Shown one piece after another: positions 1,745 to 36,086 of a stretch of DNA of 64,000 nt. The notes beneath the pieces were generated by a model that made no database searches, had not been told where the DNA came from, and saw only the letters and a list, made by a program, of their open reading frames with translations. Each line of letters starts with the position of its first letter. The first letter of the stretch is position 1. The translations under genes and the position numbers were made by a program. The stretch comes from Henckelia pumila (taxonomy: Eukaryota > Streptophyta > Magnoliopsida > Lamiales > Gesneriaceae), in NCBI RefSeq assembly GCF_033568475.1, contig NC_133121.1, positions 50,815,905 to 50,879,904 on the forward strand, written 5' to 3'.

Positions 1745-2318
1745 TGATGAAACTTAAAATTTGTAATTATTTATATGTTAAAAAGTGTGTTTTAAATTTT
1801 AAGTTTAATTAAAATTATGAAGTTGTATTATTTTAGTGTTATGTGTTTATATTTAAATGTTTTACTAAAATGTTGTATTTTACGGTTTGCGCAGGTTTGG
1901 TAAAAATAAAATTACTCAAGCTACAGAGGTCATAATGGAGTAACCTCAAAACCTGTAGAATCACAAAAGAGGCATCTTCAACTTTGTAGAAGACAAGAAA
2001 TTCCAAAAACTTCATTAAGATGATCAAAATAATCAAACATCAAAATGGAGATAGATTTACTTTTACTATGACCAGCTTGGAGTAAAAATATCATAAGTAT
2101 TTCATATTTTATCCAAAAGGGGTGAATGAGTTGTCCAAACACATCTACACAAAATATCCTACGTGTTCTATGTTGAAAAAAAAGGCTGAATCGGTGGTCT
2201 AAGGTATCAAACATGCCAATTAAAGTTGGGTCATGGTATTGACATTCAAGGAGACAAGCACCCACCAACTTTACTATTTCACATTTAATGAGCCTTGGAC
2301 TCTTGCTCTCATTTGGCC

Positions 2319-2327
2319 TATAAATAG
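2319..2327 (+). promoter_or_regulatory. LTR 1 TATA box
   Basis: TATAAATAG, a good plant TATA box placed about 570 bp into the LTR, with a likely transcription start about 30 bp downstream. Identical copies occur in LTR 2 (from 12431) and LTR 3 (from 22545). It would drive the genomic RNA. Confidence 0.7.
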
Positions 2328-2755
2328 ATGTGTTGTATAAGCTTTGTAGTGTGCAAAAGTGTAGAGAATTCTTCATTTGTAAAATAAATATTGTGTGTGT
2401 GAGAATAAAAGTTTGAGTGTGCAAGTTTCTCAAGTTCAAGTATGAAATTTCTTTTATCTTTATTCTTGAGTTTCATGTTCATGGAAAGCTAAATCTTTTT
2501 ATGTCAAGGTGAAAAGGTTTCATTGTTGGTCAAGTAAGATTGTCTATATTTTGTATATTCTTTTATTTTCTATTTTTATTTTTACTAATTGATCTTTATT
2601 TGTAGGTATAATTTTGGATGATTTGTTGTTATCTATTTACATCAAATGCTTGGTACCTTGAATGTGGTTACCTTGATTTGTTGTCAAATATGATACAATA
2701 AATACTACAATAATTATATACTATAAATATATGTATCTATTTATAATAAAATCAT

Positions 2756-2807
2756 ATATATTATTTAGACGATAGCGTGACACTGTCGGTTGTTCTAAAT
2801 AATATAT
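2756..2807 (+). repeat. LTR hairpin 1
   Basis: Perfect 14-bp inverted arms (2756-2769 and 2794-2807) around a 24-base loop containing CGATAGCGTG and CGGTTG. A second hairpin with the same loop theme lies at 2960-3011, with one compensated base-pair difference in its stem. Confidence 0.75.
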
Positions 2808-2818
2808 TGTGATTTGAA

Positions 2819-2950
2819 CTAACATTTACTTTTTCGCATCTAACTTTTACTTTATCGCAACTAACATTTATTTTTCCGCAACTAACATTTACTTTCTCGC
2901 ATCTAACTTTTACTTTTCCGCAACTAACATTTACTTTATCGCATCTAACA
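2819..2950 (+). repeat. Tandem 20-bp repeat in LTR
   Basis: Six full units and a partial seventh of about 20-21 bp with the pattern CTAACWTTTACTTTNTCGCAW. Units alternate between CATCT and CAACT junctions. The array sits exactly between the two hairpins and is repeated in LTR 2 and LTR 3. Confidence 0.85.
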
Positions 2951-2959
2951 TAAAGTCAT

Positions 2960-3011
2960 ATATTTTATTTAGACGATAGCGTGGCTCTGCCGGTTGTTCT
3001 AAATAAAATAT
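2960..3011 (+). repeat. LTR hairpin 2
   Basis: Perfect 14-bp arms (2960-2973 and 2998-3011) around a 24-base loop with CGATAGCGTGGCTCTGCCGG. It resembles hairpin 1, but one A-T stem pair is replaced by T-A in both arms. Confidence 0.75.
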
Positions 3012-3045
3012 TGTGATTTGATCTAACATTTATTTTTATGTCAAT

Positions 3046-3298
3046 TTATATTTATGCATTTATATATATATTATGGGTACCATGTATTAAATATCGGTTG
3101 ATATTAATATAGTGGGAACTATATTATATGATATACTTGTTTAAATATTTAATTGTTCTTTTTATGTTTATATTTATTCATCTATATATATATTATGGGT
3201 ACCATGTATTAAATATCGGTTAATCTGATATTAATATAGTGGGAACTATATTATATGATATACTTGTTTAAATATTTCATTGTTCTTTTATGTTTATT
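3046..3298 (+). repeat. Tandem duplication of about 125 bp in LTR
   Basis: Two consecutive copies of a block containing TATTATGGGTACCATGTATT and GTGGGAACTATATTATATG. They differ by a small insertion (about 5 bases) near 3222 and a few substitutions. The same pair is present in all three LTRs, so the duplication predates the array. Confidence 0.85.
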
Positions 3299-3546
3299 TT
3301 TATTTTAGTTTCTTTTATTTATTTTTATTAAACAATCTTAAATAAACCAACAATGAACCTTTGAAACCTTGACAATTTTATAATTTGTGTATTTGAAGTT
3401 TTATAATAATATTTTCATCTATAATATATTATTGCTAAAATTAAACTTACAACATCCTCTCCGTGGATCGATCTCGTACTCACGAGTATATTACTTGCAG
3501 ACAACCTACACTTGGGTGAATTACAATTTAAGTTGTAGCAAGTTTT

Positions 3547-3564
3547 TGGCGCCGTTGCCGGGGA
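3547..3564 (+). other. Primer binding site, tRNA-Asp
   Basis: TGGCGCCGTTGCCGGGGA, an 18-base perfect complement to the 3' end of plant tRNA-Asp, as is usual in the Athila lineage. It lies 6 bases after the LTR. Reverse transcription would start here. Confidence 0.93.
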
Positions 3565-3565
3565 G

Positions 3566-3567
3566 GT
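3566..3567 (+). promoter_or_regulatory. Candidate 5' splice site after PBS
   Basis: GAG|GTATAA directly after the PBS resembles a plant splice donor. With the acceptor at 8939-8940 it would remove the whole gag-pol region and join the leader to the CRP-like/LOG part. This is inferred from motifs only. Confidence 0.35.
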
Positions 3568-3592
3568 ATAAATTAAGTTTAATTTTGTTATT

Positions 3593-3598
3593 ATGTAA
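3593..3598 (+). promoter_or_regulatory. Minimal AUG-stop upstream ORF
   Basis: ATGTAA, a start codon followed directly by a stop, 27 bases ahead of the polyprotein ATG. AUG-stop units are known to stall ribosomes in some plant mRNAs. A second short upstream frame (3604-3639) overlaps the polyprotein start. Copy 2 has the same arrangement. Confidence 0.45.
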
Positions 3599-3619
3599 AT
3601 AGTATGTTGTTTTTATTGT

Positions 3620-6600
3620 ATGATTGTTTGGAGTCGTAAACAAAGTGGTAGACTTGTTCGAGTAACTGAAAATATTTTAAACATGGACGATAATTCTAAT
3701 AATCAAGATGATAATAATAATAATAATAATCATCAAGAACATGAACAACCAAGAACACTTAAGCACCATATGAATCCAATAAGAACTAGTACACCATCTT
3801 GTTTAGTTTTTCCTCCTGATGCATCTAATTTCAATTTTAAGCCACAAGTCATTCAACTTTTACCAAATTTTCATGGCTTAGATTCTGAAAATCCATATTT
3901 GCATTTAAGAGAATTTGAGGAGGTTTGCAACACTTATAATGATCAAAATTGTAGCATGGATACTGTTCGATTAAAGCTTTTTCCTTTTTCCTTAAAAGAT
4001 AAAGCTAAAACATGGTTGCAAAATTTGAGATCAAGTTCAATAAGATCATGGGAAGAAATGCAACAACAATTTCTAAAAAAGTTTTTTCCTTCCCATAGAA
4101 CAAACTCTTTTAAAAGACAAATTACAACTTTTTCTCAAAAACAAGGGGAAACATTTTATCAATGTTGGGATAGATATAAAGAGTTACTTAATACATGCCC
4201 ACATCATGGTTTTGAAATATGGAGAATAGTTTCTCACTTTTATGAAGGTTTAATACCTAAAGATAGGCAAATGATAGAATTCATGTGTAATGGAACTTTT
4301 GAAGATAAAAACCCAAATGAAGCTATGGAATATTTGGAGTCATTAGCAGAAAATGCTCAAAATTGGGATAATATAGGCTCAATTGAACCACCAAGTAAAA
4401 CCAATAATTCAACAAATGGGGGTGGTATTTATCATCTTAAAGATGATGTAGATGTTCAAGCTAAACTTGCATCTTTAGCAAGAAAAATCGAGTCATTAGA
4501 AATGAAAAAGAGTGATCAATTAAAAAGTGTTCAAGAAATTGTTTGTCATATATGTGACACACATGATCATCTTACAAAAAATTGTCCTACTTTGCCTTCA
4601 TTTAAAGAATGTCTCCATGAACAAGCCAATTATGTTAACAATTTTAAAAAACCAACATTAGATCCTTTTTCACAAACATACAATCCTGGTTGGAGAAATC
4701 ATCCCAATTTTAGTTGGAGGAACGATAATAATGCACAACCTTCACAACAACCTCTTCAAAATAACCAAAATCATCAAGGTTATGCTCCTTATATCCCACC
4801 TCCAAGAAAAAATTTTGAAGATGAAATTCATGCATACATTCAAAAGCAAGAGTCTATCAATATTCAAAACATTCAATCTATGAATGATTTGAAAGAAACT
4901 CTTGCAAAATTTGCATCTGCACTTAATATTCATGAAAAAGGAAAATTTCCATCTCAACCACAACCTAATCCTAAAAATCAAAATCAAGAAAAATTTGATC
5001 AAGTAAAATCTGTTATTACTCTTAGAAGTGGTAAAATAGTTAATGATCCATATAGTGATGAAAACAAAGATCAATTAAACTCAAAGAGTAAGGATTCAAA
5101 TCTTGATACTTTTGAGAAAGATGATGCTTTGAGTCCTAAAAATAAGAAAATTGATGATAAAATAAATAAACATGTTCCTTTTCCTCATGCATTAGTAAAT
5201 AATAAAAAACAAAAAAATGATTCTGATATTTATGAAGTTTTTAAACAAGTAAAAATAAATATTCCATTATTAGATGCTATTAAACAAGTGCCTTCTTATG
5301 CAAAGTTTTTAAAAGATTTATGTACTGTGAAAAGACAATTGCATGTAAAGAAGAAAGCATTCTTAACGGAGCAAGTAAGCTCTATTATTCAAAATAATTC
5401 TACCTTGAAATATAAAGATCCCGGTTGTCCAACAATTTCATGTATTATTGGAAAAAATAAAATTAAAAAAGCTTTGTTAGATTTGGGAGCAAGTGTGAAT
5501 TTAATTCCTTATTCAGTTTATGAAAAGCTTAAGTTGGGAGATTTAAAACCTACATCTGTTACTCTTTTACTAGCCGATAGGTCAATCAAAATACCTAGAG
5601 GTATCGTAGAAGATGTGTTAGTTCAAGTCGATAAATTCATATATCCTGTGGATTTTATTGTCTTGGATACACAACCAATAGAAGTACATAACGAAATTCC
5701 AGTAATATTGGGACGTCCATTTCTAGCAACTTCAAATGCTTTAATTAATTGTCGAAATGGAATAATGAAATTGTCTTTTGGAAATATGACTTTAGAACTT
5801 AATGTGTTCAATTTATGTAAACAACCAAGTATTAATGAAGATGAAGATGATAATGCAATAGAAACAATTGTGGAAGAAAATATACACCAAGAAAACTTAA
5901 ATCAACAATCTGAAGTTTGTTTAGTGGAAAGTTTTGATTCAAAAAATGTTTTTAAATCAAAGTTATTTGAAGAAATTAATGAACTTGAAGAAGTAAAAGA
6001 AAATGATCGTCCAAAACTTGAATTAAAACCCTTGCCAATAGAACTAAAATATGCTTTTCTTGGTGAAAATCAAACATATCCTATTGTAATATCTTCTACC
6101 CTCTTACCAAAACAAGAAGAAGATGTAATAACACTACTTAAAAAACACAAAAATGCAATTGGATGGACTTTGCAAGATATAAAAGGTATAAATCCTTTAA
6201 TCTGCACACATAGAATTCACTTGGAAGAAAATGCTAAAACATATCAACAACCACAAAGAAGATTAAATCCACACATGAAAGAAGTTGTTAAAAATGAAGT
6301 TTTAAAACTATTAGATGCCGGAATTATTTATCCAATCTCGGATAGTAAATGGGTAAGTCCAACACAAGTAGTACCAAAAAAATCAGGCATCACTGTTATA
6401 AAAAATGAAAAGGGAGAATTATTACAAGCTAGGATTCCATCTAGTTGGCGTATGTGCATTGATTATAGAAAATTAAATGATGCAACTAGAAAAGATCACT
6501 TTCCGTTACCATTTTTAGATCAAATTTTAGAGAAAGTGGCAGGTAATCCTTATTATTGTTTTCTTGATGGGTATTCGGGGTATTATCAAATACCAATATC

Positions 6601-8908
6601 ATTAGAAGATCAAGAAAAAACTACTTTCACTTGTCCGTTCGGAACTTTTGCTTTTAAAAGAATGCCATTTGGTTTATGTAATGCCCCGGCTACTTTTCAA
6701 AGATGCATGCTAAGTATTTTTAGTGACATGATTGAAGAATTTGTGGAAGTTTTTATGGATGATATAACTGTTTTTGGAAACTCATTTGAAAACTGTCTTA
6801 AAAATTTGGAAGAAGTTTTAAAAAGATGTGAAGAAAAAAATCTTGTTTTAAATTGGGAAAAATGTCACTACATGGTTAAATCCGGAATTGTGTTAGGGCA
6901 TGTCATATCTGAAAAAGGAATTGAAGTTGATAAAGCTAAGGTTGATGTTATTGCTAATCTACCATCACCAAACACGATCAAAGAAATTCGATCATTTTTG
7001 GGTCATGCGGGATTTTATAGAAGATTTATAAAAAATTTTAGCATAATATCGAAACCAATTTCAAATCTTTTAACAAAAGATGCACAATTTGAATGGACTC
7101 AAGAATGTGAAACTGCTTTTAAAAAAATAATTAATCTTTTAACTACATCACCTATTTTACAACCTCCTGATTGGTCTTTACCATTTGAATTAATGTGTGA
7201 TGCAAGTGATTATGCTGTAGGAGCCGTGTTAGGACAAAGAAAAGAAGGTAAACCTTATGTGATCTATTATGCAAGTAGAACCTTAAATAGTGCTCAAATC
7301 AATTATTCAACAACTGAAAAAGAATTACTTTCAGTAGTGTTTGCATTAGATAAATTTCGATCCTATTTAATTGGTTCTACTACTATTGTTTACACTGATC
7401 ATTCTGCCATAAAATATTTATCAAATAAACAAGATGCTAAGCCGAGATTAATAAGATGGATTTTGTTGTTACAAGAATTTGATCTTGTAATAAAAGATAA
7501 AAAAGGAAAAGAAAATGTAGTAGCCGATCATTTATCAAGAATAATTTCTGAATCATCTCAAAATGAAATACCAATAAATGAAAATTTTCCGGATGATCAA
7601 CTATTTTATGCTACTACTATGCCTTGGTTTGCTAATATTGTAAATTTTCTTGTGACAAATAAAATGCCTTCTCATTGGAGTTCACAAGATAAAAATAAAT
7701 TCTTGAAAGAGGTCAAAAAATTTTATTGGGATGATCCTTATTTGTTTAAGTATTGTCCTGATCAAATTTTTCGACGATGCATACCCGACAATGAGGTAAG
7801 TAGTGTCATTAAATTTTGTCATTCTGAGGCATGTGGAGGTCATTTTTCGTCAAAGAAAACAGCTGCAAAAATCTTTCAATGTGGATTTTATTGGCCTTCT
7901 TTATTCAAAGATACACATTCATTTTGCAAATCTTGTGAAAATTGTCAGAAAATGGGTTCAATTTCAAAACGAAACATGATGCCTTTAAATCCAATCATGA
8001 TTATTGAAATATTTGACAGTTGGGGAATAGATTTTATGGGTCCATTTCCATTATCTTTTGGATTCACTTATATTTTAGTAGCTGTCGATTATGTTTCAAA
8101 ATGGATTGAAGCAATTGCATGTAGAACTAATGATCATAAAGTTGTGATAAAATTTTTGAAAGAAAATATTTTTAGTCGATTTGGAATACCTAGAGCTATA
8201 ATAAGTGATGGGGGAAGTCATTTTATAAATAAATCATTTTCTTCGTTGTTAAGAAAATATGGTATTACACATAAAGTTTCTACTCCATATCACCCTCAAA
8301 CGAATGGTCAGGTTGAACTTGCAAATAAAGAAATAAAACAAATTTTGGAAAAAACAGTCAATCCAAATCGAAAAGATTGGTCTTTAAGATTAAGTGATGC
8401 ATTATGGGCATATAGAACTGCATTTAAAACATCATTGGGGATGTCACCATATAGATTAGTTTTTGGAAAGCATTGTCATTTACCTGTTGAAATTGAACAT
8501 AAAGCTTATTGGGCAATTAAAGCATTTAATACTAATTTAGATGATGCATCTAAATCAAGAAAATTGCAATTAAATGAACTAGAAGAATTAAGAAATGATG
8601 CATATGAAAATGCAAAGATTTATAAAGATAAAACAAAAGCATTTCATGATAAAAATATTATGAGAAAATCTTTTGAAATCGGAAAAAAAGTTTTACTTTA
8701 TAATTCTCGCTTGCATTTGTTTCCAGGAAAACTTAGATCGCGATGGTCTGGACCATTTATTGTTAAATTTGTCTATCCTCATGGTGCTGTTGATGTTGAA
8801 AATCCTAAAAATAATAATGTATTTAAAGTTAATGGGCAAAGACTTAAACCGTTTATAGAAAATGAAGTTCTTAATGAAGAGTTTATGCCTTTATATGATC
8901 CAACTTAA
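3620..8908 (+). CDS. Athila-like gag-pol polyprotein, copy 1 (intact)
   Basis: A 1762-residue single-frame polyprotein that would provide capsid, protease, RT, RNase H and integrase for this Ty3/gypsy element. Visible in order: retrotransposon gag domain (about 85-215); CX2CX4HX4C zinc knuckle (C309 to C322); aspartic protease with DLGAS at D621; reverse transcriptase with IDYRKLN near 945 and FMDD at 1045-1048; RNase H with CDASDYAVG (D1194) and TDHS; integrase HHCC zinc finger (about 1400-1445) and D1471, D1530, E1566, exactly DD35E. Fusion of gag and pol in one frame fits this lineage. The start is the first long in-frame ATG; a second ATG at 3683 is an alternative. All catalytic residues I could check are present, so copy 1 may be competent. 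Confidence 0.93.
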
Positions 8909-8919
8909 TTGTTACTTAT

Positions 8920-8940
8920 ATTTTTATTTTATTTTTGCAG
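8920..8940 (+). promoter_or_regulatory. Candidate 3' splice site before CRP-like ORF
   Basis: A U-rich tract ending TTTTATTTTATTTTTGCAG, a textbook plant acceptor, 11 bases after the polyprotein stop and 114 bases before the CRP-like ATG. Envelope-like ORFs of Athila elements are thought to be expressed from spliced RNA. Copy 2 has it ending at 19051. Confidence 0.5.
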
Positions 8941-9054
8941 AATTGAGTTCACTTCCCGGTTAAGTGGCGGATAACGGTACTCCGTGACTACTTTCAGTCG
9001 GTTTTATTTCAATTTCCCAAAATAATTGAATATATATATATATAAATATATATT

Positions 9055-9605
9055 ATGGATGAAGATATCAAAAACTTGGTAAATATTTTCCATCTGTTTC
9101 TAAAAAAGTTCTGAGAATGATTTATGAAGGCAGATGTGAAAGATTGAGAATGCTTATGCAAAAAGGAATCCCGGAGGATATTCGTCTTATAATTGAAGCC
9201 AAGGTTCGATTAGGTGGTGAAGTTCCAAAATTCTTACTTGTTCGAAATATGTCTGGACTAGGAAAAAGTACCTATGCGAAGAAAAGAAGGGCTAAAATGT
9301 TAGATGTTTGTCATAATTGTGCCAGATGGACTTGTAATAGACAATGCAGATCTTTGGGATATGTTTCCACAAATAGAGAAGATAAAATTGATTTCATTAA
9401 GAATGGGCTGAGTAAAGAGTCATTGGATGATATCTCATTGACTCTTGAGACGCATTCTAGTGGAGATGTACAAGGTCAACTTCTCCATTTATGGAAACTA
9501 TTCCAAGCGCAGCGTCATGGTGATGGTCTTGGGAATCTGACTAAAAAAGACCCTATTTGCCAATTTATAAGAAAATTGGATGGTAAGCCAACCCTCGACT
9601 CATAA
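9055..9605 (+). pseudogene. CRP-like (viral nucleic-acid-binding-like) ORF, copy 1, frameshifted near start
   Basis: A small basic protein in the envelope position. The ATG at 9055 is separated from the rest by loss of one A in an A-run near 9071; an open frame resumes at ATG 9117 and runs 162 residues. Counting from 9117: a segment with IPEDIRLIIEA (18-28), then GKSTYAKKRRAK (49-60), CHNC (65-68), C73 and C77. The order 'helical P-E-D-I segment, G-(K/R)-S-x-Y-A plus basic stretch with RRA, then CHxC and further cysteines' matches the cysteine-rich nucleic-acid-binding proteins of carlaviruses and relatives (Pfam Viral_NABP), which bind nucleic acid and affect silencing or host transcription. 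The C-terminal 75 residues are unrecognised. The full frame would be about 183 residues. Identity rests on motif memory and is unconfirmed. Confidence 0.6.
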
Positions 9606-9745
9606 ATATTGAAGGAACACTGTGAGCCACAATCACATCACTGTTTATACGCATGCATGTTATTATTATATATTATTTTTTTTTACTATTTTCATCATTT
9701 TGTTCACATCTGTATTCCTATTTCTGTCTTATTCCTTGTTTTCCT

Positions 9746-9753
9746 TATAAAAT
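9746..9753 (+). promoter_or_regulatory. TATA box ahead of LOG, copy 1
   Basis: TATAAAAT, 42 bases before the LOG ATG, preceded by a pyrimidine-rich stretch (TCTGTCTTATTCCTTG) and followed by CTCTCTCT. It would give a short A-rich leader. This suggests LOG can be transcribed from its own promoter, apart from the LTR. Copy 2 has it at 19860-19867. Confidence 0.5.
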
Positions 9754-9795
9754 CACTCAACTCTCTCTATATTTTTTAAAAGAAAAGAAAAAAAC

Positions 9796-10434
9796 ATGAC
9801 AGGATCTTCTTCACAAAAATTGAAAAATATTTGTGTCTTTTGTGGTTCTAATACTGGAAAGAATGAAATATTTGTTGATGCAGCAATTAATCTTGGAAAA
9901 AATTTAGCAGAGAGAAAAATTCACTTGGTTTACGGAGGAGGCAATATTGGGTTAATGGGATCTATTTCAACAGCAGCTCATCTTGGAGGTAGTCAGGTTT
10001 TGGGTATTATTCCTACAGCTTTAGCTGAAGGAAATATTACAGGTGTTACGGTTGGGGAAGAGTTGAAAGTTTCATCAATGTACGAGAGAATAACTAAAAT
10101 GATAGAAAATTCTGATGCTTTTATTGCCTTGCCTGGTGGTTTTGGTACTTTAGAAGAAATTTTTCATGTTGTTTCTTGGGCACAACTTAATATACATAAT
10201 AAACCTGTTGGCTTGTTGAATATCAATAAATATTATGATGGTTTGTTGACTTTTCTCGATGTAGCCGTGGAACAAAATTTTATTTCAGAAAATTCACGAA
10301 GGATGCTCATCTCTGCTTCGAATGAAGACCAATTAATTGATGATCTCCAAGCTTTTGTTCATCAACCTGATTCAGCTATAACAAAGATCAATTGGTCTCA
10401 ACCAACCAGTAAGAAAAGAAAACTGGATCATTGA
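9796..10434 (+). CDS. LOG-type cytokinin riboside 5'-monophosphate phosphoribohydrolase, copy 1
   Basis: A 212-residue protein of the lysine decarboxylase-like/LOG family. Plant LOG enzymes hydrolyse cytokinin riboside monophosphates to active free-base cytokinin and ribose 5-phosphate in the cytosol and nucleus. Visible: ICVFCGS near the N-terminus (12-18), VYGGGNIGLMG (45-55), MYERITKM (95-102) with R98, and PGGFGTLEE (113-121), the family signature PGGxGTxxE, with E121. R98 and E121 match the usual catalytic positions. Length is typical of plant LOGs. The C-terminus KKRKLDH could act as a nuclear signal. Plant LOG genes normally have several introns, whereas this frame is uninterrupted, suggesting capture from a spliced RNA. 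It lies 190 bp after the CRP-like ORF, inside the retroelement. The protein is identical in copy 2. Confidence 0.9.
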   Translation: MTGSSSQKLKNICVFCGSNTGKNEIFVDAAINLGKNLAERKIHLVYGGGNIGLMGSISTAAHLGGSQVLGIIPTALAEGNITGVTVGEELKVSSMYERITKMIENSDAFIALPGGFGTLEEIFHVVSWAQLNIHNKPVGLLNINKYYDGLLTFLDVAVEQNFISENSRRMLISASNEDQLIDDLQAFVHQPDSAITKINWSQPTSKKRKLDH

Positions 10435-10487
10435 TTCAACATGTCATGAAATGGTTTGTGTTTGTTCCTCATCTTCAATAATTCCAG

Positions 10488-10603
10488 GTGATATCTCTTT
10501 CATCATGTACTCTTTATTTTTCTTAAAAAAAAAAAAAAAAAAAAATTTAAAATTTAAAAAAATATATTTCTATAATAATATTTATTTTTTTTTTCAATGG
10601 CAG
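10488..10603 (+). other. Possible small intron in LOG 3' UTR
   Basis: CAG|GTGATA at 10485-10493 and a T-rich tract ending CAATGGCAG at 10603 would bound a 116-bp, very AT-rich intron 53 bases after the LOG stop. It contains an A-run of about 21. Alternatively that A-run is the trace of a captured poly(A) tail. Both readings are motif-based. Confidence 0.25.
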
Positions 10604-11019
10604 AGTAAGGAGTCAAAAACTCCTGACACGCATTAGTTTTTATTTATCATCTTATCACAATAGATTAGATTTTAATATTCCGTATATATTTAAATTGCAA
10701 ACTACTAAGAAAATGAAGTCTTTTTGTATAGATGTTTATTTATTCTTCTTTTTATCAATTTAATAGAAAATATATAATTGATGGGATATAAGTTATAAAT
10801 AATATATAATTGTGTGTTTTCAAATACATATTTTCTAAAACTTTTATGAGTATATAATTAAAGTGATATTGATTGAATAAATAATAACATGTATAATTGA
10901 GGGAATTAATTTGTAAAAGTTCAATAGTTACTCACATAAATTTTGTGAGTGAGGGGTAAGAATTGAGAAAACAACTTATAAGCTTTTATTGATTATTAAG
11001 AAATGGTTGATTACTAGAT
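10604..11019 (+). other. Non-coding 3' part of LOG element, copy 1
   Basis: AT-rich with no ORF. It holds a small hairpin AGGAGT/ACTCCT near 10606-10622 that might be a 3' end signal; the rest shows nothing recognisable. Confidence 0.5.
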
Positions 11020-11343
11020 TAAACCCATTTTGAAAAAAAAAAAGAAAAAAAAAGAAAAATGAAAATTGGCTGCAAAGTTGTTTGAAGTTTGATTGTAAAG
11101 TTGTAGAGTATTAATATCTCTACTATAATTATTAATGTAATAGATTTACCTCATAAAAAATAAAAAAAATAAATAAACTTTGAAAAAAAAATGTTACATT
11201 TTCAAAGTTTATTGGAGGTATTTGATTATGTAAAAACAATTTTGCAGCCAAGCAAAAAAACAAAAAAAACAAAAAAAAAAACAAACAAACAAAAAACCAA
11301 AAACCCAAAAAAAAAAAAAAAACAAAAAAAAAAAATGGGTTTA
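11020..11343 (+). repeat. Foldback (MITE-like) sequence, copy 1
   Basis: Nested inverted repeats: outer arms TAAACCCATTTT at 11020 and AAAATGGGTTTA ending 11343; inner arms TTGGCTGCAAAGTTGTTT near 11065 and AAACAATTTTGCAGCCAA near 11235; central arms ATAAACTTTGAAAA and TTTTCAAAGTTTAT around 11172-11213. Long A-runs sit between arms. It could be an old MITE or a structured 3' RNA. Copy 2 is at 21132-21455 with different A-run lengths. Confidence 0.6.
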
Positions 11344-11847
11344 TTCTTTGTAAATCATCCTATCTTATTTTCAATATTAGGTTATTTGATTGTCTGCTTT
11401 ACTAGCCATTTTCAAAGAGTGTATAATTTCTTCCAACTCCATGAGTGAAAAACAGCTATATATGAAATACTTTAACCCGAGAGAATATGGAGTTGAGACT
11501 TTTACATTAATATTCTTGATGATATACATGTTATGAAAATGATTTCTATTATCCTTTTAATTATATTATTCTCAAAGTTTTTAGAAAATATTTATGTAAA
11601 AAAAAAAAAAATTATATATATTTAATATTTTGATATTGTGTGAAATATATATGTATAGCCCATCCAATTACATATTGATGTATTGGTTGATAATGAGATT
11701 TATAAATAAACATATGATCTCCTCACAAGTGTGTTTTTAAAATTTCAAAGTTTGCAAATTTGAATATATATATTAAGGAATAAAAATCTAACTTGTGATT
11801 TTATGATATTTTATGATATTTTATTACTAAGGGACTAGTAATTAGCC
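11344..11847 (+). other. Non-coding spacer before PPT, copy 1
   Basis: AT-rich, no gene recognised. It ends in the polypurine tract of the element. Confidence 0.5.
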
Positions 11848-11859
11848 GGTTTGGGGGTG
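11848..11859 (+). other. Polypurine tract, copy 1
   Basis: GGTTTGGGGGTG directly before the TGATGAAAC start of LTR 2; it would prime plus-strand synthesis. Copy 2 (21960-21970) has one G fewer. Confidence 0.7.
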
Positions 11860-13652
11860 TGATGAAACTTAAAATTTGTAATTATTTATATGTTAAAAAG
11901 TGTGTTTTAAATTTTAAGTTTAATTAAAATTATGAAGTTGTATTATTTTAGTGTTATGTGTTTATATTTAAATGTTTTACTAAAATGTTGTATTTTACGG
12001 TTTGCGCAGGTTTGGTAAAAATAAAATTACTCAAGCTACAGAGGTCATAATGGAGTAACCTCAAAACCTGTAGAATCACAAAAGAGGCATCTTCAACTTT
12101 GTAGAAGACAAGAAATTCCAAAAACTTCATTAAGATGATCAAAAATAAACATCAAAATGGAGATAGATTTACTTTTACTATGACCAGCTTGGAGTAAAAA
12201 TATCATAAGTATTTCATATTTTATCCAAAAGGGGTGAATGAGTTGTCCAAACACATCTACACAAAATATCCTACGTGTTCTATGTTGAAAAAAAAGGCTG
12301 AATCGGTGGTCTAAGGTATCAAACATGCCAATTAAAGTTGGGTCATGGTATTGACATTCAAGGAGACAAGCACCCACCAACTTTACTATTTCACATTTAA
12401 TGAGCCTTGGACTCTTGCTCTCATTTGGCCTATAAATAGATGTGTTGTATAAGCTTTGTAGTGTGCAAAAGTGTAGAGAATTCTTCATTTGTAAAATAAA
12501 TATTGTGTGTGTGAGAATAAAAGTTTGAGTGTGCAAGTTTCTCAAGTTCAAGTATGAAATTTCTTTTATCTTTATTCTTGAGTTTCATGTTCATGGAAAG
12601 CTAAATCTTTTTATGTCAAGGTGAAAAGGTTTCATTGTTGGTCAAGTAAGATTGTCTATATTTTGTATATTCTTTTCTTTTCTATTTTTATTTTTACTAA
12701 TTGATCTTTATTTGTAGGTATAATTTTGGATGATTTGTTGTTATCTATTTACATCAAATGCTTGGTACCTTGAATGTGGTTACCTTGATTTGTTGTCAAA
12801 TATGATACAATAAATACTACAATAATTATATACTATAAATATATGTATCTATTTATAATAAAATCATATATATTATTTAGACGATAGCGTGACACTGTCG
12901 GTTGTTCTAAATAATATATTGTGATTTGAACTAACATTTACTTTTTCGCATCTAACTTTTACTTTATCGCAACTAACATTTATTTTTCCGCAACTAACAT
13001 TTACTTTCTCGCATCTAACTTTTACTTTTCCGCAACTAACATTTACTTTATCGCATCTAACATAAAGTCATATATTTTATTTAGACGATAGCGTGGCTCT
13101 GCCGGTTGTTCTAAATAAAATATTGTGATTTGATCTAACATTTATTTTTATGTCAATTTATATTTATGCATTTATATATATATTATGGGTACCATGTATT
13201 AAATATCGGTTGATATTAATATAGTGGGAACTATATTATATGATATACTTGTTTAAATATTTAATTGTTCTTTTTATGTTTATATTTATTCATCTATATA
13301 TATATTATGGGTACCATGTATTAAATATCGGTTAATCTGATATTAATATAGTGGGAACTATATTATATGATATACTTGTTTAAATATTTCATTGTTCTTT
13401 TATGTTTATTTTTATTTTAGTTTCTTTTATTTATTTTTATTAAACAATCTTAAATAAACCAACAATGAACCTTTGAAACCTTGACAATTTTATAATTTGT
13501 GTATTTGAAGTTTTATAATAATATTTTCATCTATAATATATTATTGCTAAAATTAAACTTACAACATCCTCTCCGTGGATCGATCTCGTACTCACGAGTA
13601 TATTACTTGCAGACAACCTACACTTGGGTGAATTACAATTTAAGTTGTAGCA
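11860..13652 (+). repeat. LTR 2 (shared middle LTR)
   Basis: 1793 bp, almost identical to LTR 1 and LTR 3, but with a small deletion where the others read AAAATAATCAAAC (about 12137-12146). It serves as the 3' LTR of copy 1 and the 5' LTR of copy 2. Confidence 0.92.
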
Positions 13653-13658
13653 AGTTTT

Positions 13659-13676
13659 TGGCGCCGTTGCCGGGGA
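13659..13676 (+). other. Primer binding site, tRNA-Asp, copy 2
   Basis: Same 18-base tRNA-Asp complement as at 3547. The donor-like GAG|GTATAA follows directly. Confidence 0.92.
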
Positions 13677-13731
13677 GGTATAAATTAAGTTTAATTTTGT
13701 TATTATGTAAATAGTATGTTGTTTTTATTGT

Positions 13732-16700
13732 ATGATTGTTTGGAGTCGTAAACAAAGTGGTAGACTTGTTCGAGTAACTGAAAATATTTTAAACATGGAC
13801 GATAATTCTAATAATCAAGATGATAATAATAATAATAATAATCATCAAGAACATGAACAACCAAGAACACTTAAGCACCATATGAATCCAATAAGAACTA
13901 GTACACCATCTTGTTTAGTTTTTCCTCCTGATGCATCTAATTTCAATTTTAAGCCACAAGTCATTCAACTTTTACCAAATTTTCATGGCTTAGATTCTGA
14001 AAATCCATATTTGCATTTAAGAGAATTTGAGGAGGTTTGCAACACTTATAATGATCAAAATTGTAGCATGGATACTGTTCGATTAAAGCTTTTTCCTTTT
14101 TCCTTAAAAGATAAAGCTAAAACATGGTTGCAAAATTTGAGATCAAGTTCAATAAGATCATGGGAAGAAATGCAACAACAATTTCTAAAAAAGTTTTTTC
14201 CTTCCCATAGAACAAACTCTTTTAAAAGACAAATTACAACTTTTTCTCAAAAACAAGGGGAAACATTTTATCAATGTTGGGATAGATATAAAGAGTTACT
14301 TAATACATGCCCACATCATGGTTTTGAAATATGGAGAATAGTTTCTCACTTTTATGAAGGTTTAATACCTAAAGATAGGCAAATGATAGAATTCATGTGT
14401 AATGGAACTTTTGAAGATAAAAACCCAAATGAAGCTATGGAATATTTGGAGTCATTAGCAGAAAATGCTCAAAATTGGGATAATATAGGCTCAATTGAAC
14501 CACCAAGTAAAACCAATAATTCAACAAATGGGGGTGGTATTTATCATCTTAAAGATGATGTAGATGTTCAAGCTAAACTTGCATCTTTAGCAAGAAAAAT
14601 CGAGTCATTAGAAATGAAAAAGAGTGATCAATTAAAAAGTGTTCAAGAAATTGTTTGTCATATATGTGACACACATGATCATCTTACAAAAAATTGTCCT
14701 ACTTTGCCTTCATTTAAAGAATGTCTCCATGAACAAGCCAATTATGTTAACAATTTTAAAAAACCAACATTAGATCCTTTTTCACAAACATACAATCCTG
14801 GTTGGAGAAATCATCCCAATTTTAGTTGGAGGAACGATAATAATGCACAACCTTCACAACAACCTCTTCAAAATAACCAAAATCATCAAGGTTATGCTCC
14901 TTATATCCCACCTCCAAGAAAAAATTTTGAAGATGAAATTCATGCATACATTCAAAAGCAAGAGTCTATCAATATTCAAAACATTCAATCTATGAATGAT
15001 TTGAAAGAAACTCTTGCAAAATTTGCATCTGCACTTAATATTCATGAAAAAGGAAAATTTCCATCTCAACCACAACCTAATCCTAAAAATCAAAATCAAG
15101 AAAAATTTGATCAAGTAAAATCTGTTATTACTCTTAGAAGTGGTAAAATAGTTAATGATCCATATAGTGATGAAAACAAAGATCAATTAAACTCAAAGAG
15201 TAAGGATTCAAATCTTGATACTTTTGAGAAAGATGATGCTTTGAGTCCTAAAAATAAGAAAATTGATGATAAAATAAATAAACATGTTCCTTTTCCTCAT
15301 GCATTAGTAAATAATAAAAAACAAAAAAATGATTCTGATATTTATGAAGTTTTTAAACAAGTAAAAATAAATATTCCATTATTAGATGCTATTAAACAAG
15401 TGCCTTCTTATGCAAAGTTTTTAAAAGATTTATGTACTGTGAAAAGACAATTGCATGTAAAGAAGAAAGCATTCTTAACGGAGCAAGTAAGCTCTATTAT
15501 TCAAAATAATTCTACCTTGAAATATAAAGATCCCGGTTGTCCAACAATTTCATGTATTATTGGAAAAAATAAAATTAAAAAAGCTTTGTTAGATTTGGGA
15601 GCAAGTGTGAATTTAATTCCTTATTCAGTTTATGAAAAGCTTAAGTTGGGAGATTTAAAACCTACATCTGTTACTCTTTTACTAGCCGATAGGTCAATCA
15701 AAATACCTAGAGGTATCGTAGAAGATGTGTTAGTTCAAGTCGATAAATTCATATATCCTGTGGATTTTATTGTCTTGGATACACAACCAATAGAAGTACA
15801 TAACGAAATTCCAGTAATATTGGGACGTCCATTTCTAGCAACTTCAAATGCTTTAATTAATTGTCGAAATGGAATAATGAAATTGTCTTTTGGAAATATG
15901 ACTTTAGAACTTAATGTGTTCAATTTATGTAAACAACCAAGTATTAATGAAGATGAAGATGATAATGCAATAGAAACAATTGTGGAAGAAAATATACACC
16001 AAGAAAACTTAAATCAACAATCTGAAGTTTGTTTAGTGGAAAGTTTTGATTCAAAAAATGTTTTTAAATCAAAGTTATTTGAAGAAATTAATGAACTTGA
16101 AGAAGTAAAAGAAAATGATCGTCCAAAACTTGAATTAAAACCCTTGCCAATAGAACTAAAATATGCTTTTCTTGGTGAAAATCAAACATATCCTATTGTA
16201 ATATCTTCTACCCTCTTACCAAAACAAGAAGAAGATGTAATAACACTACTTAAAAAACACAAAAATGCAATTGGATGGACTTTGCAAGATATAAAAGGTA
16301 TAAATCCTTTAATCTGCACACATAGAATTCACTTGGAAGAAAATGCTAAAACATATCAACAACCACAAAGAAGATTAAATCCACACATGAAAGAAGTTGT
16401 TAAAAATGAAGTTTTAAAACTATTAGATGCCGGAATTATTTATCCAATCTCGGATAGTAAATGGGTAAGTCCAACACAAGTAGTACCAAAAAAATCAGGC
16501 ATCACTGTTATAAAAAATGAAAAGGGAGAATTATTACAAGCTAGGATTCCATCTAGTTGGCGTATGTGCATTGATTATAGAAAATTAAATGATGCAACTA
16601 GAAAAGATCACTTTCCGTTACCATTTTTAGATCAAATTTTAGAGAAAGTGGCAGGTAATCCTTATTATTGTTTTCTTGATGGGTATTCGGGGTATTATCA

Positions 16701-19019
16701 AATACCAATATCATTAGAAGATCAAGAAAAAACTACTTTCACTTGTCCGTTCGGAACTTTTGCTTTTAAAAGAATGCCATTTGGTTTATGTAATGCCCCG
16801 GCTACTTTTCAAAGATGCATGCTAAGTATTTTTAGTGACATGATTGAAGAATTTGTGGAAGTTTTTATGGATGATATAACTGTTTTTGGAAACTCATTTG
16901 AAAACTGTCTTAAAAATTTGGAAGAAGTTTTAAAAAGATGTGAAGAAAAAAATCTTGTTTTAAATTGGGAAAAATGTCACTACATGGTTAAATCCGGAAT
17001 TGTGTTAGGGCATGTCATATCTGAAAAAGGAATTGAAGTTGATAAAGCTAAGGTTGATGTTATTGCTAATCTACCATCACCAAACACGATCAAAGAAATT
17101 CGATCATTTTTGGGTCATGCGGGATTTTATAGAAGATTTATAAAAAATTTTAGCATAATATCGAAACCAATTTCAAATCTTTTAACAAAAGATGCACAAT
17201 TTGAATGGACTCAAGAATGTGAAACTGCTTTTAAAAAATAATTAATCTTTTAACTACATCACCTATTTTACAACCTCCTGATTGGTCTTTACCATTTGAA
17301 TTAATGTGTGATGCAAGTGATTATGCTGTAGGAGCCGTGTTAGGACAAAGAAAAGAAGGTAAACCTTATGTGATCTATTATGCAAGTAGAACCTTAAATA
17401 GTGCTCAAATCAATTATTCAACAACTGAAAAAGAATTACTTTCAGTAGTGTTTGCATTAGATAAATTTCGATCCTATTTAATTGGTTCTACTACTATTGT
17501 TTACACTGATCATTCTGCCATAAAATATTTATCAAATAAACAAGATGCTAAGCCGAGATTAATAAGATGGATTTTGTTGTTACAAGAATTTGATCTTGTA
17601 ATAAAAGATAAAAAAGGAAAAGAAAATGTAGTAGCCGATCATTTATCAAGAATAATTTCTGAATCATCTCAAAATGAAATACCAATAAATGAAAATTTTC
17701 CGGATGATCAACTATTTTATGCTACTACTATGCCTTGGTTTGCTAATATTGTAAATTTTCTTGTGACAAATAAAATGCCTTCTCATTGGAGTTCACAAGA
17801 TAAAAATAAATTCTTGAAAGAGGTCAAAAAATTTTATTGGGATGATCCTTATTTGTTTAAGTATTGTCCTGATCAAATTTTTCGACGATGCATACCCGAC
17901 AATGAGGTAAGTAGTGTCATTAAATTTTGTCATTCTGAGGCATGTGGAGGTCATTTTTCGTCAAAGAAAACAGCTGCAAAAATCTTTCAATGTGGATTTT
18001 ATTGGCCTTCTTTATTCAAAGATACACATTCATTTTGCAAATCTTGTGAAAATTGTCAGAAAATGGGTTCAATTTCAAAACGAAACATGATGCCTTTAAA
18101 TCCAATCATGATTATTGAAATATTTGACAGTTGGGGAATAGATTTTATGGGTCCATTTCCATTATCTTTTGGATTCACTTATATTTTAGTAGCTGTCGAT
18201 TATGTTTCAAAATGGATTGAAGCAATTGCATGTAGAACTAATGATCATAAAGTTGTGATAAAATTTTTGAAAGAAAATATTTTTAGTCGATTTGGAATAC
18301 CTAGAGCTATAATAAGTGATGGGGGAAGTCATTTTATAAATAAATCATTTTCTTCGTTGTTAAGAAAATATGGTATTACACATAAAGTTTCTACTCCATA
18401 TCACCCTCAAACGAATGGTCAGGTTGAACTTGCAAATAAAGAAATAAAACAAATTTTGGAAAAAACAGTCAATCCAAATCGAAAAGATTGGTCTTTAAGA
18501 TTAAGTGATGCATTATGGGCATATAGAACTGCATTTAAAACATCATTGGGGATGTCACCATATAGATTAGTTTTTGGAAAGCATTGTCATTTACCTGTTG
18601 AAATTGAACATAAAGCTTATTGGGCAATTAAAGCATTTAATACTAATTTAGATGATGCATCTAAATCAAGAAAATTGCAATTAAATGAACTAGAAGAATT
18701 AAGAAATGATGCATATGAAAATGCAAAGATTTATAAAGATAAAACAAAAGCATTTCATGATAAAAATATTATGAGAAAATCTTTTGAAATCGGAAAAAAA
18801 GTTTTACTTTATAATTCTCGCTTGCATTTGTTTCCAGGAAAACTTAGATCGCGATGGTCTGGACCATTTATTGTTAAATTTGTCTATCCTCATGGTGCTG
18901 TTGATGTTGAAAATCCTAAAAATAATAATGTATTTAAAGTTAATGGGCAAAGACTTAAACCGTTTATAGAAAATGAAGTTCTTAATGAAGAGTTTATGCC
19001 TTTATATGATCCAACTTAA
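13732..19019 (+). pseudogene. Athila-like gag-pol polyprotein, copy 2, one-base frameshift
   Basis: Same polyprotein as copy 1, but an A-run at 17233-17238 has 6 A where copy 1 has 7 (7121-7127). The frame stops at 17241 after 1169 residues, keeping gag, zinc knuckle, protease and RT but losing RNase H and integrase. The remainder is open in another frame from 17304 to 19019 (571 residues) and still shows [13 protein letters not shown], the HHCC finger and DD35E. The change is in a homopolymer, so it could be a real slip or a consensus error. Confidence 0.9.
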
Positions 19020-19165
19020 TTGTTACTTATATTTTTATTTTATTTTTGCAGAATTGAGTTCACTTCCCGGTTAAGTGGCGGATAACGGTACTCCGTGACT
19101 ACTTTCAGTCGGTTTTATTTCAATTTCCCAAAATAATTGAATATATATATATATAAATATATATT

Positions 19166-19719
19166 ATGGATGAAGATATCAAAAAACTTGGTAAATATTT
19201 TCCATCTGTTTCTAAAAAAGTTCTGAGAATGATTTATGAAGGCAGATGTGAAAGATTGAGAATGCTTATGCAAAAAGGAATCCCGGAGGATATTCGTCTT
19301 ATAATTGAAGCCAAGGTTCGATTAGGTGGTGAAGTTCCAAAATTCTTACTTGTTCGAAATATGTCTGGACTAGGAAAAAGTACCTATGCGAAGAAAAGAA
19401 GGGCTAAAAGGTTAGATGTTTGTCATAATTGTGCCAGATGGACTTGTAATAGACAATGCAGATCTTTGGGATATGTTTCCACAAATAGAGAAGAGATAAA
19501 ATTGATTTCATTAAGAATGGGCTGAGTAAAGAGTCATTGGATGATATCTCATTGACTCTTGAGACGCATTCTAGTGGAGATGTACAAGGTCAACTTCTCC
19601 ATTTATGGAAACTATTCCAAGCGCAGCGTCATGGTGATGGTCTTGGGAATCTGACTAAAAAAGACCCTATTTGCCAATTTATAAGAAAATTGGATGGTAA
19701 GCCAACCCTCGACTCATAA
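19166..19719 (+). pseudogene. CRP-like ORF, copy 2, frameshifted after the cysteine motif
   Basis: Here the 5' end is in frame from the ATG at 19166 (MDEDIKKLGKYF...), giving 21 residues ahead of the point where the copy 1 frame starts. GKSTYAKKRRAK, CHNC and the two later cysteines are intact. A two-base GA gain in a GAGA context at about 19491-19496 shifts the frame, which ends after 119 residues; the C-terminal part remains open from 19537 in another frame. One position differs from copy 1 (R for M just after the basic stretch). See copy 1 for the family argument. Confidence 0.6.
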
Positions 19720-19859
19720 ATATTGAAGGAACACTGTGAGCCACAATCACATCACTGTTTATACGCATGCATGTTATTATTATATATTATTTTTTTTTAC
19801 TATTTTCATCATTTTGTTCACATCTGTATTCCTATTTCTGTCTTATTCCTTGTTTTCCT

Positions 19860-19867
19860 TATAAAAT
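19860..19867 (+). promoter_or_regulatory. TATA box ahead of LOG, copy 2
   Basis: TATAAAAT, the same distance from the LOG ATG as in copy 1. Confidence 0.5.
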
Positions 19868-19909
19868 CACTCAACTCTCTCTATATTTTTTAAAAGAAAA
19901 GAAAAAAAC

Positions 19910-20548
19910 ATGACAGGATCTTCTTCACAAAAATTGAAAAATATTTGTGTCTTTTGTGGTTCTAATACTGGAAAGAATGAAATATTTGTTGATGCAGCAA
20001 TTAATCTTGGAAAAAATTTAGCAGAGAGAAAAATTCACTTGGTTTACGGAGGAGGCAATATTGGGTTAATGGGATCTATTTCAACAGCAGCTCATCTTGG
20101 AGGTAGTCAGGTTTTGGGTATTATTCCTACAGCTTTAGCTGAAGGAAATATTACAGGTGTTACGGTTGGGGAAGAGTTGAAAGTTTCATCAATGTACGAG
20201 AGAATAACTAAAATGATAGAAAATTCTGATGCTTTTATTGCCTTGCCTGGTGGTTTTGGTACTTTAGAAGAAATTTTTCATGTTGTTTCTTGGGCACAAC
20301 TTAATATCCATAATAAACCTGTTGGCTTGTTGAATATCAATAAATATTATGATGGTTTGTTGACTTTTCTCGATGTAGCCGTGGAACAAAATTTTATTTC
20401 AGAAAATTCACGAAGGATGCTCATCTCTGCTTCGAATGAAGACCAATTAATTGATGATCTCCAAGCTTTTGTTCATCAACCTGATTCAGCTATAACAAAG
20501 ATCAATTGGTCTCAACCAACCAGTAAGAAAAGAAAACTGGATCATTGA
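19910..20548 (+). CDS. LOG-type cytokinin riboside 5'-monophosphate phosphoribohydrolase, copy 2
   Basis: The 212-residue product is identical to copy 1, with PGGFGTLEE at 113-121, R98 and E121. I found one synonymous difference (ATC for ATA at codon 133). While the neighbouring polyprotein and CRP-like frames differ by indels between copies, LOG is intact in both, though the copies are too young for this to prove selection. Confidence 0.9.
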   Translation: MTGSSSQKLKNICVFCGSNTGKNEIFVDAAINLGKNLAERKIHLVYGGGNIGLMGSISTAAHLGGSQVLGIIPTALAEGNITGVTVGEELKVSSMYERITKMIENSDAFIALPGGFGTLEEIFHVVSWAQLNIHNKPVGLLNINKYYDGLLTFLDVAVEQNFISENSRRMLISASNEDQLIDDLQAFVHQPDSAITKINWSQPTSKKRKLDH

Positions 20549-21131
20549 TTCAACATGTCATGAAATGGTTTGTGTTTGTTCCTCATCTTCAATAATTCCA
20601 GGTGATATCTCTTTCATCATGTACTCTTTATTTTTCTTAAAAAAAAAAAAAAAAATTTAAAATTTTTAAAAAAATATATTTCTATAATAATATTTATTTT
20701 TTTTTTCAATGGCAGAGTAAGGAGTCAAAAACTCCTGACACGCATTAGTTTTTATTTATCATCTTATCACAATAGATTAGATTTTAATATTCCGTATATA
20801 TTTAAATTGCAAACTACTAAGAAAATGAAGTCTTTTTGTATAGATGTTTATTTATTCTTCTTTTTATCAATTTAATAGAAAATATATAATTGATGGGATA
20901 TAAGTTATAAATAATATATAATTGTGTGTTTTCAAATACATATTTTCTAAAACTTTTATGAGTATATAATTAAAGTGATATTGATTGAATAAATAATAAC
21001 ATGTATAATTGAGGGAATTAATTTGTAAAAGTTCAATAGTTACTCACATAAATTTTGTGAGTGAGGGGTAAGAATTGAGAAAACAACTTATAAGCTTTTA
21101 TTGATTATTAAGAAATGGTTGATTACTAGAT
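20549..21131 (+). other. Non-coding 3' part of LOG element, copy 2
   Basis: Equivalent of 10435-11019, with the A-run shorter by several bases and the same intron-like donor and acceptor signals. No gene is seen. Confidence 0.5.
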
Positions 21132-21455
21132 TAAACCCATTTTGAAAAAAAAAAAGAAAAAAAAAGAAAAATGAAAATTGGCTGCAAAGTTGTTTGAAGT
21201 CTGATTGTAAAGTTGTAGAGTATTAATATCTCTACTATAATTATTAATGTAATAGATTTACCTCATAAAAAATAAAAAAAATAAATAAACTTTGAAAAAA
21301 AAATGTTACATTTTCAAAGTTTATTGGAGGTATTTGATTATGTAAAAACAATTTTGCAGCCAAGCAAAAAAACAAAAAAAACAAAAAAAAAAACAAAAAA
21401 ACAAAAAAACAAAAAAACAAAAAAAAAAAAAAAACAAAAAAAAAAAATGGGTTTA
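21132..21455 (+). repeat. Foldback (MITE-like) sequence, copy 2
   Basis: Same nested inverted arms as at 11020-11343; the A-rich spacer differs in pattern. Confidence 0.6.
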
Positions 21456-21970
21456 TTCTTTGTAAATCATCCTATCTTATTTTCAATATTAGGTTATTTG
21501 ATTGTCTGCTTTACTAGCCATTTTCAAAGAGTGTATAATTTCTTCCAACTCCATGAGTGAAAAACAGCTATATATGAAATACTTTAACCCGAGAGAATAT
21601 GGAGTTGAGACTTTTACATTAATATTCTTGATGATATACATGTTATGAAAATGATTTCTATTATCCTTTTAATTATATTATTCTCAAAGTTTTTAGAAAA
21701 TATTTATGTAAAAAAAAAAAAAAAATTATATATTTAATATTTTGATATTGTGTGAAATATATATGTATAGCCCATCCAATTACATATTGATGTATTGGTT
21801 GATAATGAGATTTATAAATAAACATATGATCTCCTCACAAGTGTGTTTTTAAAATTTCAAAGTTTGCAAATTTGAATATATATATTAAGGAATAAAAATC
21901 TAACTTGTGATTTTATGATATTTTATGATATTTTATTACTAAGGGACTAGTAATTAGCCGGTTTGGGGTG

Positions 21971-34922: not shown

Positions 34923-36086
34923 TCAATGGTTGTCGCCATCATCAGCAGCATCATCAGGGGACGGATCAGAAGGGCCAAAAGTGGGTGGCCACTGTGGATA
35001 CAGAGGAAATGGATGAGCCGAACTAGCAGCCTGTGGAAACTGATGTCTCAAAGCATCTGTAAAATCCATCATGTAGTCCATAAAGACACCAGTAGTCTGC
35101 TGAAATGTCCGAAACTCTTGACGGTGTGCTCTCAATTCATCCTCCAGAATAGCAACACGATCGGGCGCAACAGGGGGTGCTTGAGGTCGGGGTGCAGGGC
35201 CGCTTCGTGCAGCTGCTCGCTCATTAAAATCTCGCCTCTCAGCGCGAGTTCGGTGCTCAGAAGCTGGTATCATGCGAAAAGGAGTATGACAAGCAATAGG
35301 AGCAGTAGCTTTCAACAATTCTTCATTTTGACCCCACTCAACTCCAGCCGCTTCACAAAGATCAGTGATAAGTGCGGGCAAAGCAAACCCGCCAGTTATC
35401 TTACCTGCCGCCACACCCTGAATAGTTGCTTGACAAATCTGTCCCAAGTCGATTGCTTTGCCCTCCAAAATACAATAAACAAGAATCGCTCATTCTCGTG
35501 TCACCTCATGCTCGTGGTCAGTCGGTTTAAGACGAGCACACACAAAGTTGTACCATAGCTTATCATCAGGAAGTAGCTCGGTCTTCTTCAACTTAGAAGG
35601 CTGATGATCACGACCCATGCGCCATTCCGCACCCGGAACACAAATACGGCTCAGAATCGCCGTGTAATCCACTTCATTCGCTCGGTACTCCGCATACTCA
35701 TCGTGAAATACTGGTGGAAGATTGTACAAGGTGTTAATAGTGTGAGCATCAAAAGGCACCAGCTGGCCTCGGACAAGCACTTTCAACTGCATGTGCTTTA
35801 CTTTCAAGTTTGCATAAAATTCACAAACGATTGGGACGACAGCAACCTGCGGTGGCTTAACAAAATTTAATCATTGACGCCCATTCACAGCCCTACCAAT
35901 TGTATGCAAAAACTCATCGTTCCCAAACCCCAATGTCGTGTCGAACCCACGCTCCGGTAATATCGTTTTGCCTAGACAATTTTGATAATGCTGTTCGGCA
36001 CTCTCATTCCAGAAACGCTGCGGCTCATGCTCTGGATTAGCATGAGAAGAGGATGCAACAGATTTTTGCTTCTTCTTTGGGGCCAT
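34923..36086 (-). pseudogene. Third ORF (plant transposon protein domain-like), two in-frame TGA
   Basis: One frame of 387 codons from MAPKKKQK at 36086 to a proline/acidic C-terminus at 34923, broken by TGA at 35871-35873 and 35490-35492. The flanking contexts (GRQ-stop-LNFVKPP and TRE-stop-AILVYCILEGK) suggest lost tryptophan codons, TGG to TGA. The readable parts resemble the 'putative plant transposon protein' domain found after pol in many Athila-like elements: FWNESAEQHYQ near the N-terminus, a middle with LYNLPP and DYTAIL, and a C-terminal coiled coil (RVAILEDELRAHRQEF). Function unknown. It lies in the envelope position. Confidence 0.6.

Follow-up and report, generated by a model that had tools for sequence, protein, structure and literature searches.

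A LOG-derived gene beside a homologue of viral cysteine-rich proteins in an Athila-like LTR retrotransposon array of Henckelia pumila

LOG and cysteine-rich protein genes downstream of pol

Analysis of a 64,000-nucleotide stretch of the Henckelia pumila genome (contig NC_133121.1, positions 50,815,905 to 50,879,904 of the forward strand; hereafter the window) revealed a forward-strand retrotransposon array (1745..23766) of three long terminal repeats (LTRs) and two interiors, which carries between pol and the 3' LTR a homologue of the cytokinin-activating enzyme LONELY GUY (LOG). The LOG open reading frame (ORF) of the first interior (9796..10434) is complete, encodes 212 amino acids plus stop with the C-terminus KKRKLDH, and matched Pfam Lysine_decarbox (E=3.7e-39) and NCBIfam TIGR00730 (E=3.6e-52, exceeding the cut-off of that profile); the stricter NCBIfam LOG equivalog NF058542 gave 122.9 bits, under its cut-off of 300 bits. 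The closest solved structure is AtLOG3 (2a33, E=8.8e-64), to which the protein is 52-53% identical, and its AlphaFold model (pLDDT 88.9) returned 2a33_B as the top Foldseek match (E=6.4e-24, rmsd 1.1). PGGFGTLEE, R98 and E121 are all present, and the HMMER alignment with AtLOG3 is gapless over residues 6-202, so that no intron interrupts the gene. Host plant LOG genes contain introns. ORF and alignment therefore confirmed what an original prediction, made from the sequence, had described as a complete, intronless LOG inside the LTRs with the PGGxGTxxE motif and both catalytic residues. A second LOG ORF (19910..20548), recovered in the ORF list, by Pfam and by tblastn, encodes an identical protein, the two genes differing by one silent change only. 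The predicted two copies thus exist as two identical ORFs; they are, however, parts of the interiors of a single LTR-interior-LTR-interior-LTR array, and as both lie in this one array they do not represent independent insertions, a scenario ruled out by self-comparison of the window.

A further ORF, overlooked in the original prediction, is located between pol and LOG (9117..9605, 162 aa). It matched Pfam Carla_C4 (E=4.9e-6, 26.9 bits versus a cut-off of 20.9) and, slightly under the cut-off of 23, Viral_NABP (E=1.2e-4, 22.6 bits), and it has a basic stretch ahead of a cysteine finger. Relatives at E<=0.001 numbered 353 among 375 candidates, the best 120 of which were examined by row; named hosts among the matches listed include Populus, Xanthoceras, Rhamnella and Orobanche. 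Among 28 aligned rows at E<=0.01, Viral_NABP was found in 25 and Carla_C4 in 24, and a pattern admitting the spacing C-x2-C-x4-C-x3-C fits 112 of the 121 proteins among the matches listed. Judged by these profiles, the ORF is a homologue of the carlavirus-type cysteine-rich nucleic-acid-binding protein (cysteine-rich protein, CRP). A PDB profile search with the CRP gave nothing under E=0.57, and viral contigs scanned with the CRP and LOG alignments contained no relative. Passages of PMC12172455 and PMC3689765 attribute silencing suppression to viral CRPs and, for one of them, report a role as a transcription factor inducing hyperplasia.

The position of the CRP behind integrase recurs in a second sequence, L001 (DAIEQH010000041.1), which encodes an integrase 75% identical to that of the window over 440 aa, followed by a CRP. 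No LOG was found in the 983 bp after this CRP, where the best match covered 13 residues (E=0.008). The contig is plant-like retrotransposon sequence filed under a Candidatus Nomurabacteria metagenome-assembled genome, evidently as contamination. For this single pair, dN/dS of the CRP was 0.30 (NG86) or 0.13 (YN00), and that of the integrase 0.15 (NG86). In the Rhamnella protein P0181, an integrase end is fused to a CRP (111 aa, 77%), and in the Xanthoceras protein P0003, parts of a LOG flank a 29-aa piece that is 52% identical to the polyprotein. Three contig sizes are common to the LOG and CRP match lists, a number reached in 9 of 20000 draws with jittered sizes. Given the cases of integrase-CRP linkage, together with L001 and its missing LOG, the CRP is probably more widespread than the LOG.

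Relatives, substrate pocket and C-terminal tail of the element LOG

Of 8000 proteins scored in the LOG search, 7971 reached E<=0.001, and the best 120 of these were used as relatives; counts below over 121 LOGs or 115 relatives include the window LOG. Reevesia pubescens contributed 26 of the 120, spread over many long contigs, and Diplodiscus, Pterospermum, Populus, Xanthoceras, Primulina, Paulownia, Melia and Parasponia are among the other sources listed. The relatives come from several plant families, are mutually 51-86% identical, and keep length, catalytic positions and tail. Absence of LOG elsewhere, which had been named as speaking against the original prediction, is thereby countered at the protein level. 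The control set comprised 120 host LOGs collected with AtLOG3 and AtLOG8 as queries; it is LOG1/3/4/8-like and under-samples other paralogues. When 41 thinned relatives were placed in one tree with 50 thinned hosts, a branch with an SH-aLRT support of 100 divided the two sets, and with 14 hosts the same branch was supported at 100/100, a split that is favoured by the selection of each set for its similarity to its query.

Passages of PMC4979012 propose that the prenyl site of CgLOG is lined by Met96, His97, Lys100, Glu125 and Trp129 and that Arg99 and Glu122 are catalytic. At the five pocket positions the window LOG has M, Y, I, H and W, and hence only part of the pocket. Neither Lys nor Glu remains in 111 of 115 relatives, whereas all 114 host LOGs compared keep the two residues; they are likewise present in the compared Pseudomonas and Bacillus proteins. 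In the 111 relatives, Lys is replaced by M (42), I (35) or L (34) and Glu by Q (58), H (49) or other residues (4), and the pocket His is retained in 45. The catalytic Arg is kept in 110 and the catalytic Glu in 112 of the 115 relatives (both in 107), and in the thinned core the catalytic set and phosphate loop are nearly fixed, with a top-residue fraction of 0.98 versus a mean of 0.76 that was matched by none of 20000 random column sets. Because Arg and Glu are kept and the pocket Lys and Glu lost, the active centre is conserved and the base-recognising part changed. Four relatives retain Lys and Glu; two of these, P0067 and P0091, are basal among the relatives and sit on short branches; their basic tails do not have the motif described below, and they look like an intermediate stage. 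Column variability of 39 thinned relatives and 50 hosts was correlated (Spearman 0.52, 180 columns), although such protein-level evidence of selection is weakened by the preference of predicted-protein databases for open frames.

The C-terminal tail separates the relatives further from the host proteins. The ending LxLxL-COOH occurs in 98 of 120 listed relatives and in none of 120 host LOGs, a basic patch within the last 25 residues in 108 of 121 versus 1 of 120 hosts, and the stricter K[KR]x[KR] within the last 16 in 83 of 121 versus 1 of 120. Of the 41 thinned rows, 30 carry LxLxL; among these the three Leu are invariant and the intervening residues vary. As the query itself is without the motif, LxLxL was not selected by the search. 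We take the LxLxL tail to be an EAR motif, which binds TOPLESS, and KKRK presumably represents a nuclear localisation signal (NLS). A peroxisomal C-terminal signal was rejected as the identity of the tail, with 0 of 121 proteins fitting [SAC][KRH][LM]-COOH. Among the 121 CRPs, one relative (P0201) likewise ends in LxLxL-COOH.

Structure of the array and neighbouring elements

Self-comparison of the window delimited LTR 1 (1745..3540), which has TG...CA ends and contains TATAAATAG at 2319-2327, LTR 2 (11860..13652) and LTR 3 (21971..23766), all on the forward strand. The primer-binding-site region (3541..3566), putatively matching tRNA-Asp, opens both interiors with the same sequence, and a polypurine-tract-like G-rich stretch (11847..11859) precedes LTR 2. 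The first interior encodes an uninterrupted gag-pol ORF of 1762 aa (3620..8908) in which Pfam, run on three pieces, identified gag, protease, reverse transcriptase, RNase H and integrase; no chromodomain was found. In the second interior, gag-pol is divided into two ORFs by a frameshift (13732..19019) and followed by a CRP with tblastn matches in two frames (19166..19716). LTR 1 and LTR 3 differ by 1 mismatch in 1794 aligned positions. The alignment of the two interiors has six gaps and covers 8315 aligned bases, of which 10 are mismatched; in view of this near-identity the element looks young, unless the copies were evened by recombination. The outer flanks of the array are C-rich on both sides, which fits a 5-bp target duplication, although such low-complexity sequence is no proof. 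We provisionally assign the array to the Athila-like Ty3/gypsy LTR retrotransposons, a label based on organisation: domains follow the order gag-protease-reverse transcriptase-RNase H-integrase, there is one RNase H, and extra ORFs lie in sense orientation 3' of pol. Passages of PMC6317226 describe extra ORFs in OTA elements and aRH in Tat.

Each LTR also contains an antisense ORF of 131-132 aa (1978-2376, 12093-12488 and 22204-22602, minus strand), the first copy of which has no Pfam match. A second Athila-like element with two long ORFs occupies 31860-42704 on the minus strand; its integrase shares approximately 61% identity with the integrase of the LOG element, and tblastn found neither CRP nor LOG in it. 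Rfam snoR71 (RF00097) scored above gathering at 4102-4212 and 14214-14324 on the minus strand and at 41668-41773 on the plus strand, antisense within gag of both element types in the window; the snoR71 family may include retroelement-derived sequence.

Possible roles of the captured gene

The data point to a genuine accessory gene of an Athila-like lineage, one that looks selected, is derived from LOG and has a changed pocket and, in most listed relatives, a changed tail. As the best overall explanation, to which we give an even chance, we propose that a captured LOG was remodelled into a nuclear accessory protein beside a virus-like suppressor. A spliced LOG transcript from a plant would long ago have been captured by an Athila-like lineage and retained next to a second accessory gene, the flexivirus-type CRP homologue. 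The element LOG has kept its fold, phosphate loop and catalytic Arg/Glu and no longer has the adenine/prenyl pocket residues Lys and Glu, and most listed relatives carry an NLS-like basic patch with a C-terminal EAR-type LxLxL behind it. CRP and LOG would together form an accessory module directed at the host cell: the CRP may weaken RNA silencing or serve as a transcription factor, like its viral relatives, and LOG would work in the nucleus, where the LxLxL-bearing relatives could recruit TOPLESS co-repressors; LOG may also be a nucleotide hydrolase with changed specificity. The parts of this proposal differ in strength. Maintenance of the captured gene as an accessory gene is highly probable, and the element LOG is probably nuclear. 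That it retains some phosphoribohydrolase activity is slightly favoured, TOPLESS recruitment by the LxLxL-bearing relatives is plausible at a little under even, and normal cytokinin activation by the element LOG is unlikely. The most general version, a widespread LTR lineage with a two-gene host-control module made up of a virus-type suppressor and a nuclear TOPLESS-recruiting LOG of altered nucleotide specificity, is put forward tentatively, as less likely than not.

Several observations weigh against this proposal. The first CRP copy starts at an internal ATG, with the N-terminus of its relatives out of frame, the second is frameshifted, so that both CRPs of the window are damaged, and the pol of the second interior is damaged by a frameshift as well. 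The AlphaFold model of the CRP is poor (pLDDT 59); compared with viral structures, it ranked plant-virus proteins, of viruses that we take to be betaflexiviruses, at positions 1-7 (best E=0.0098, low TM-scores), five being named as suppressors of RNA silencing, and because the model is so poor this ranking mostly reflects sequence and is weak, a lead only. The window LOG keeps KKRK and is without LxLxL, and it forms with P0002, P0005, P0010 and P0014 a supported group (100/99), its nearest rows, that has the basic patch and is without the motif, representing either a loss or the primitive state. Furthermore, the LOG relatives are mostly unplaced proteins, with an element position shown for a few, and the CRP-LOG pair is not universal, since L001 has a CRP with no LOG downstream. 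Finally, the CRP finger C-x2-C-x4-C-x3-C departs from the C-x2-C-x9-C-x4-C that passages of PMC3689765 give for the carlavirus potato virus H.

We rank nuclear host manipulation first as the likely role of LOG and, second, the role given in the original prediction, in which an ordinary cytokinin-activating LOG increases active cytokinin wherever the element is expressed as RNA and keeps cells dividing and so open to transposition. The retained fold, PGGxGTxxE motif, catalytic Arg/Glu and Trp agree with an ordinary enzyme, as do the four relatives with an intact Lys and Glu, and passages of PMC4979012 consider that another LOG, altered at its prenyl site, may produce different cytokinins. The same passages report that alanine at the AMP-binding residues of CgLOG, S19A excepted, nearly abolished activity, and an ordinary LOG would leave the LxLxL tail without a role. 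Since other residues take the place of the pocket Lys and Glu in the window LOG and in nearly all relatives, the protein is not an ordinary LOG, which makes plain cytokinin activation, and with it the cell-proliferation story, doubtful; we regard this explanation as rather improbable. Less probable still is a LOG fold kept as scaffold or nucleotide sensor, in which catalysis is irrelevant and function lies in the conserved tail: loss of the pocket residues and the three fixed tail Leu would suit it, yet few columns are as conserved as those of catalytic Arg/Glu and the phosphate loop. We consider it very unlikely that LOG is a passive recent passenger, a host transcript caught by chance whose decay is not yet visible. 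Passages of PMC7264820 do describe host genes transduced by LTR elements of plants, in one or few copies, and the adjacent CRP and one pol are damaged in the window; against this stand the relatives from several plant families with conserved length, catalytic positions and tail, and the single, silent change between the window LOG copies.

Captured enzymes in LTR elements have precedents. Two Athila-like elements similar to LOGL4 were reportedly found by Steinbauerova et al. in 2011. Passages of PMC9289625 (Alvarado-Marchena et al. 2022) report the YgdH/LOG domain in LTR-retrotransposon consensus sequences from two Citrus species and, when the filter was relaxed, from Populus trichocarpa, in line with the credited 2011 paper of Steinbauerova et al. 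A LOG-bearing element is thus known in kind; the original prediction was aware of no described LTR element with such a cargo. Those plant Ty3/gypsy elements likewise hold a LOG domain within an LTR element; the passages are silent on a CRP neighbour, pocket changes and a C-terminal LxLxL, of which CRP and pocket changes are found here in the window and LxLxL in the relatives. The same paper describes Phalaenopsis Ty3/gypsy elements with a captured AlkB RNA demethylase, which showed activity in vitro and was suggested to oppose control by the host; they differ from the window's in enzyme, element and hosts. In the literature searched, including passages of PMC6317226, PMC7264820, PMC11728184 and PMC11963269, no report of the CRP neighbour, the pocket changes or the EAR-type tail was found. 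Titles and abstract starts retrieved for Carla_C4, Viral_NABP, PF01623 or PF05515 comprised two papers, both on glyoxalases, and those retrieved for EAR/TOPLESS, carlavirus cysteine-rich protein or Betaflexiviridae suppressor with LTR retrotransposon reported no such elements. With plant LOG1/3/4/8 (AtLOG3 2a33, AtLOG8 1ydh), the window LOG has fold, phosphate loop, catalytic Arg/Glu and Trp in common, and it differs in the replaced pocket Lys/Glu, the basic tail, the lack of introns and the location in an LTR element. The window CRP resembles carlavirus and flexivirus CRPs in its Carla_C4/Viral_NABP profiles and in the basic stretch before the finger, but has another finger spacing, a longer C-terminal part and a retrotransposon location.

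Plant LTR elements hold many extra ORFs of unclear role; as the two adjacent ORFs resemble biochemically known proteins, anti-silencing, co-repressor recruitment and enzyme specificity are directly testable in this case. Some database 'LOG' proteins are probably element-borne, for example three LxLxL-tailed Populus LOGL10 rows. If the CRP ancestry is shared, flexiviruses and retrotransposons would have exchanged a suppressor gene. If our proposal is true, a retrotransposon has reshaped a captured hormone enzyme beyond simple use, and elements with the two-gene module would counter host control at both the RNA and the chromatin level.
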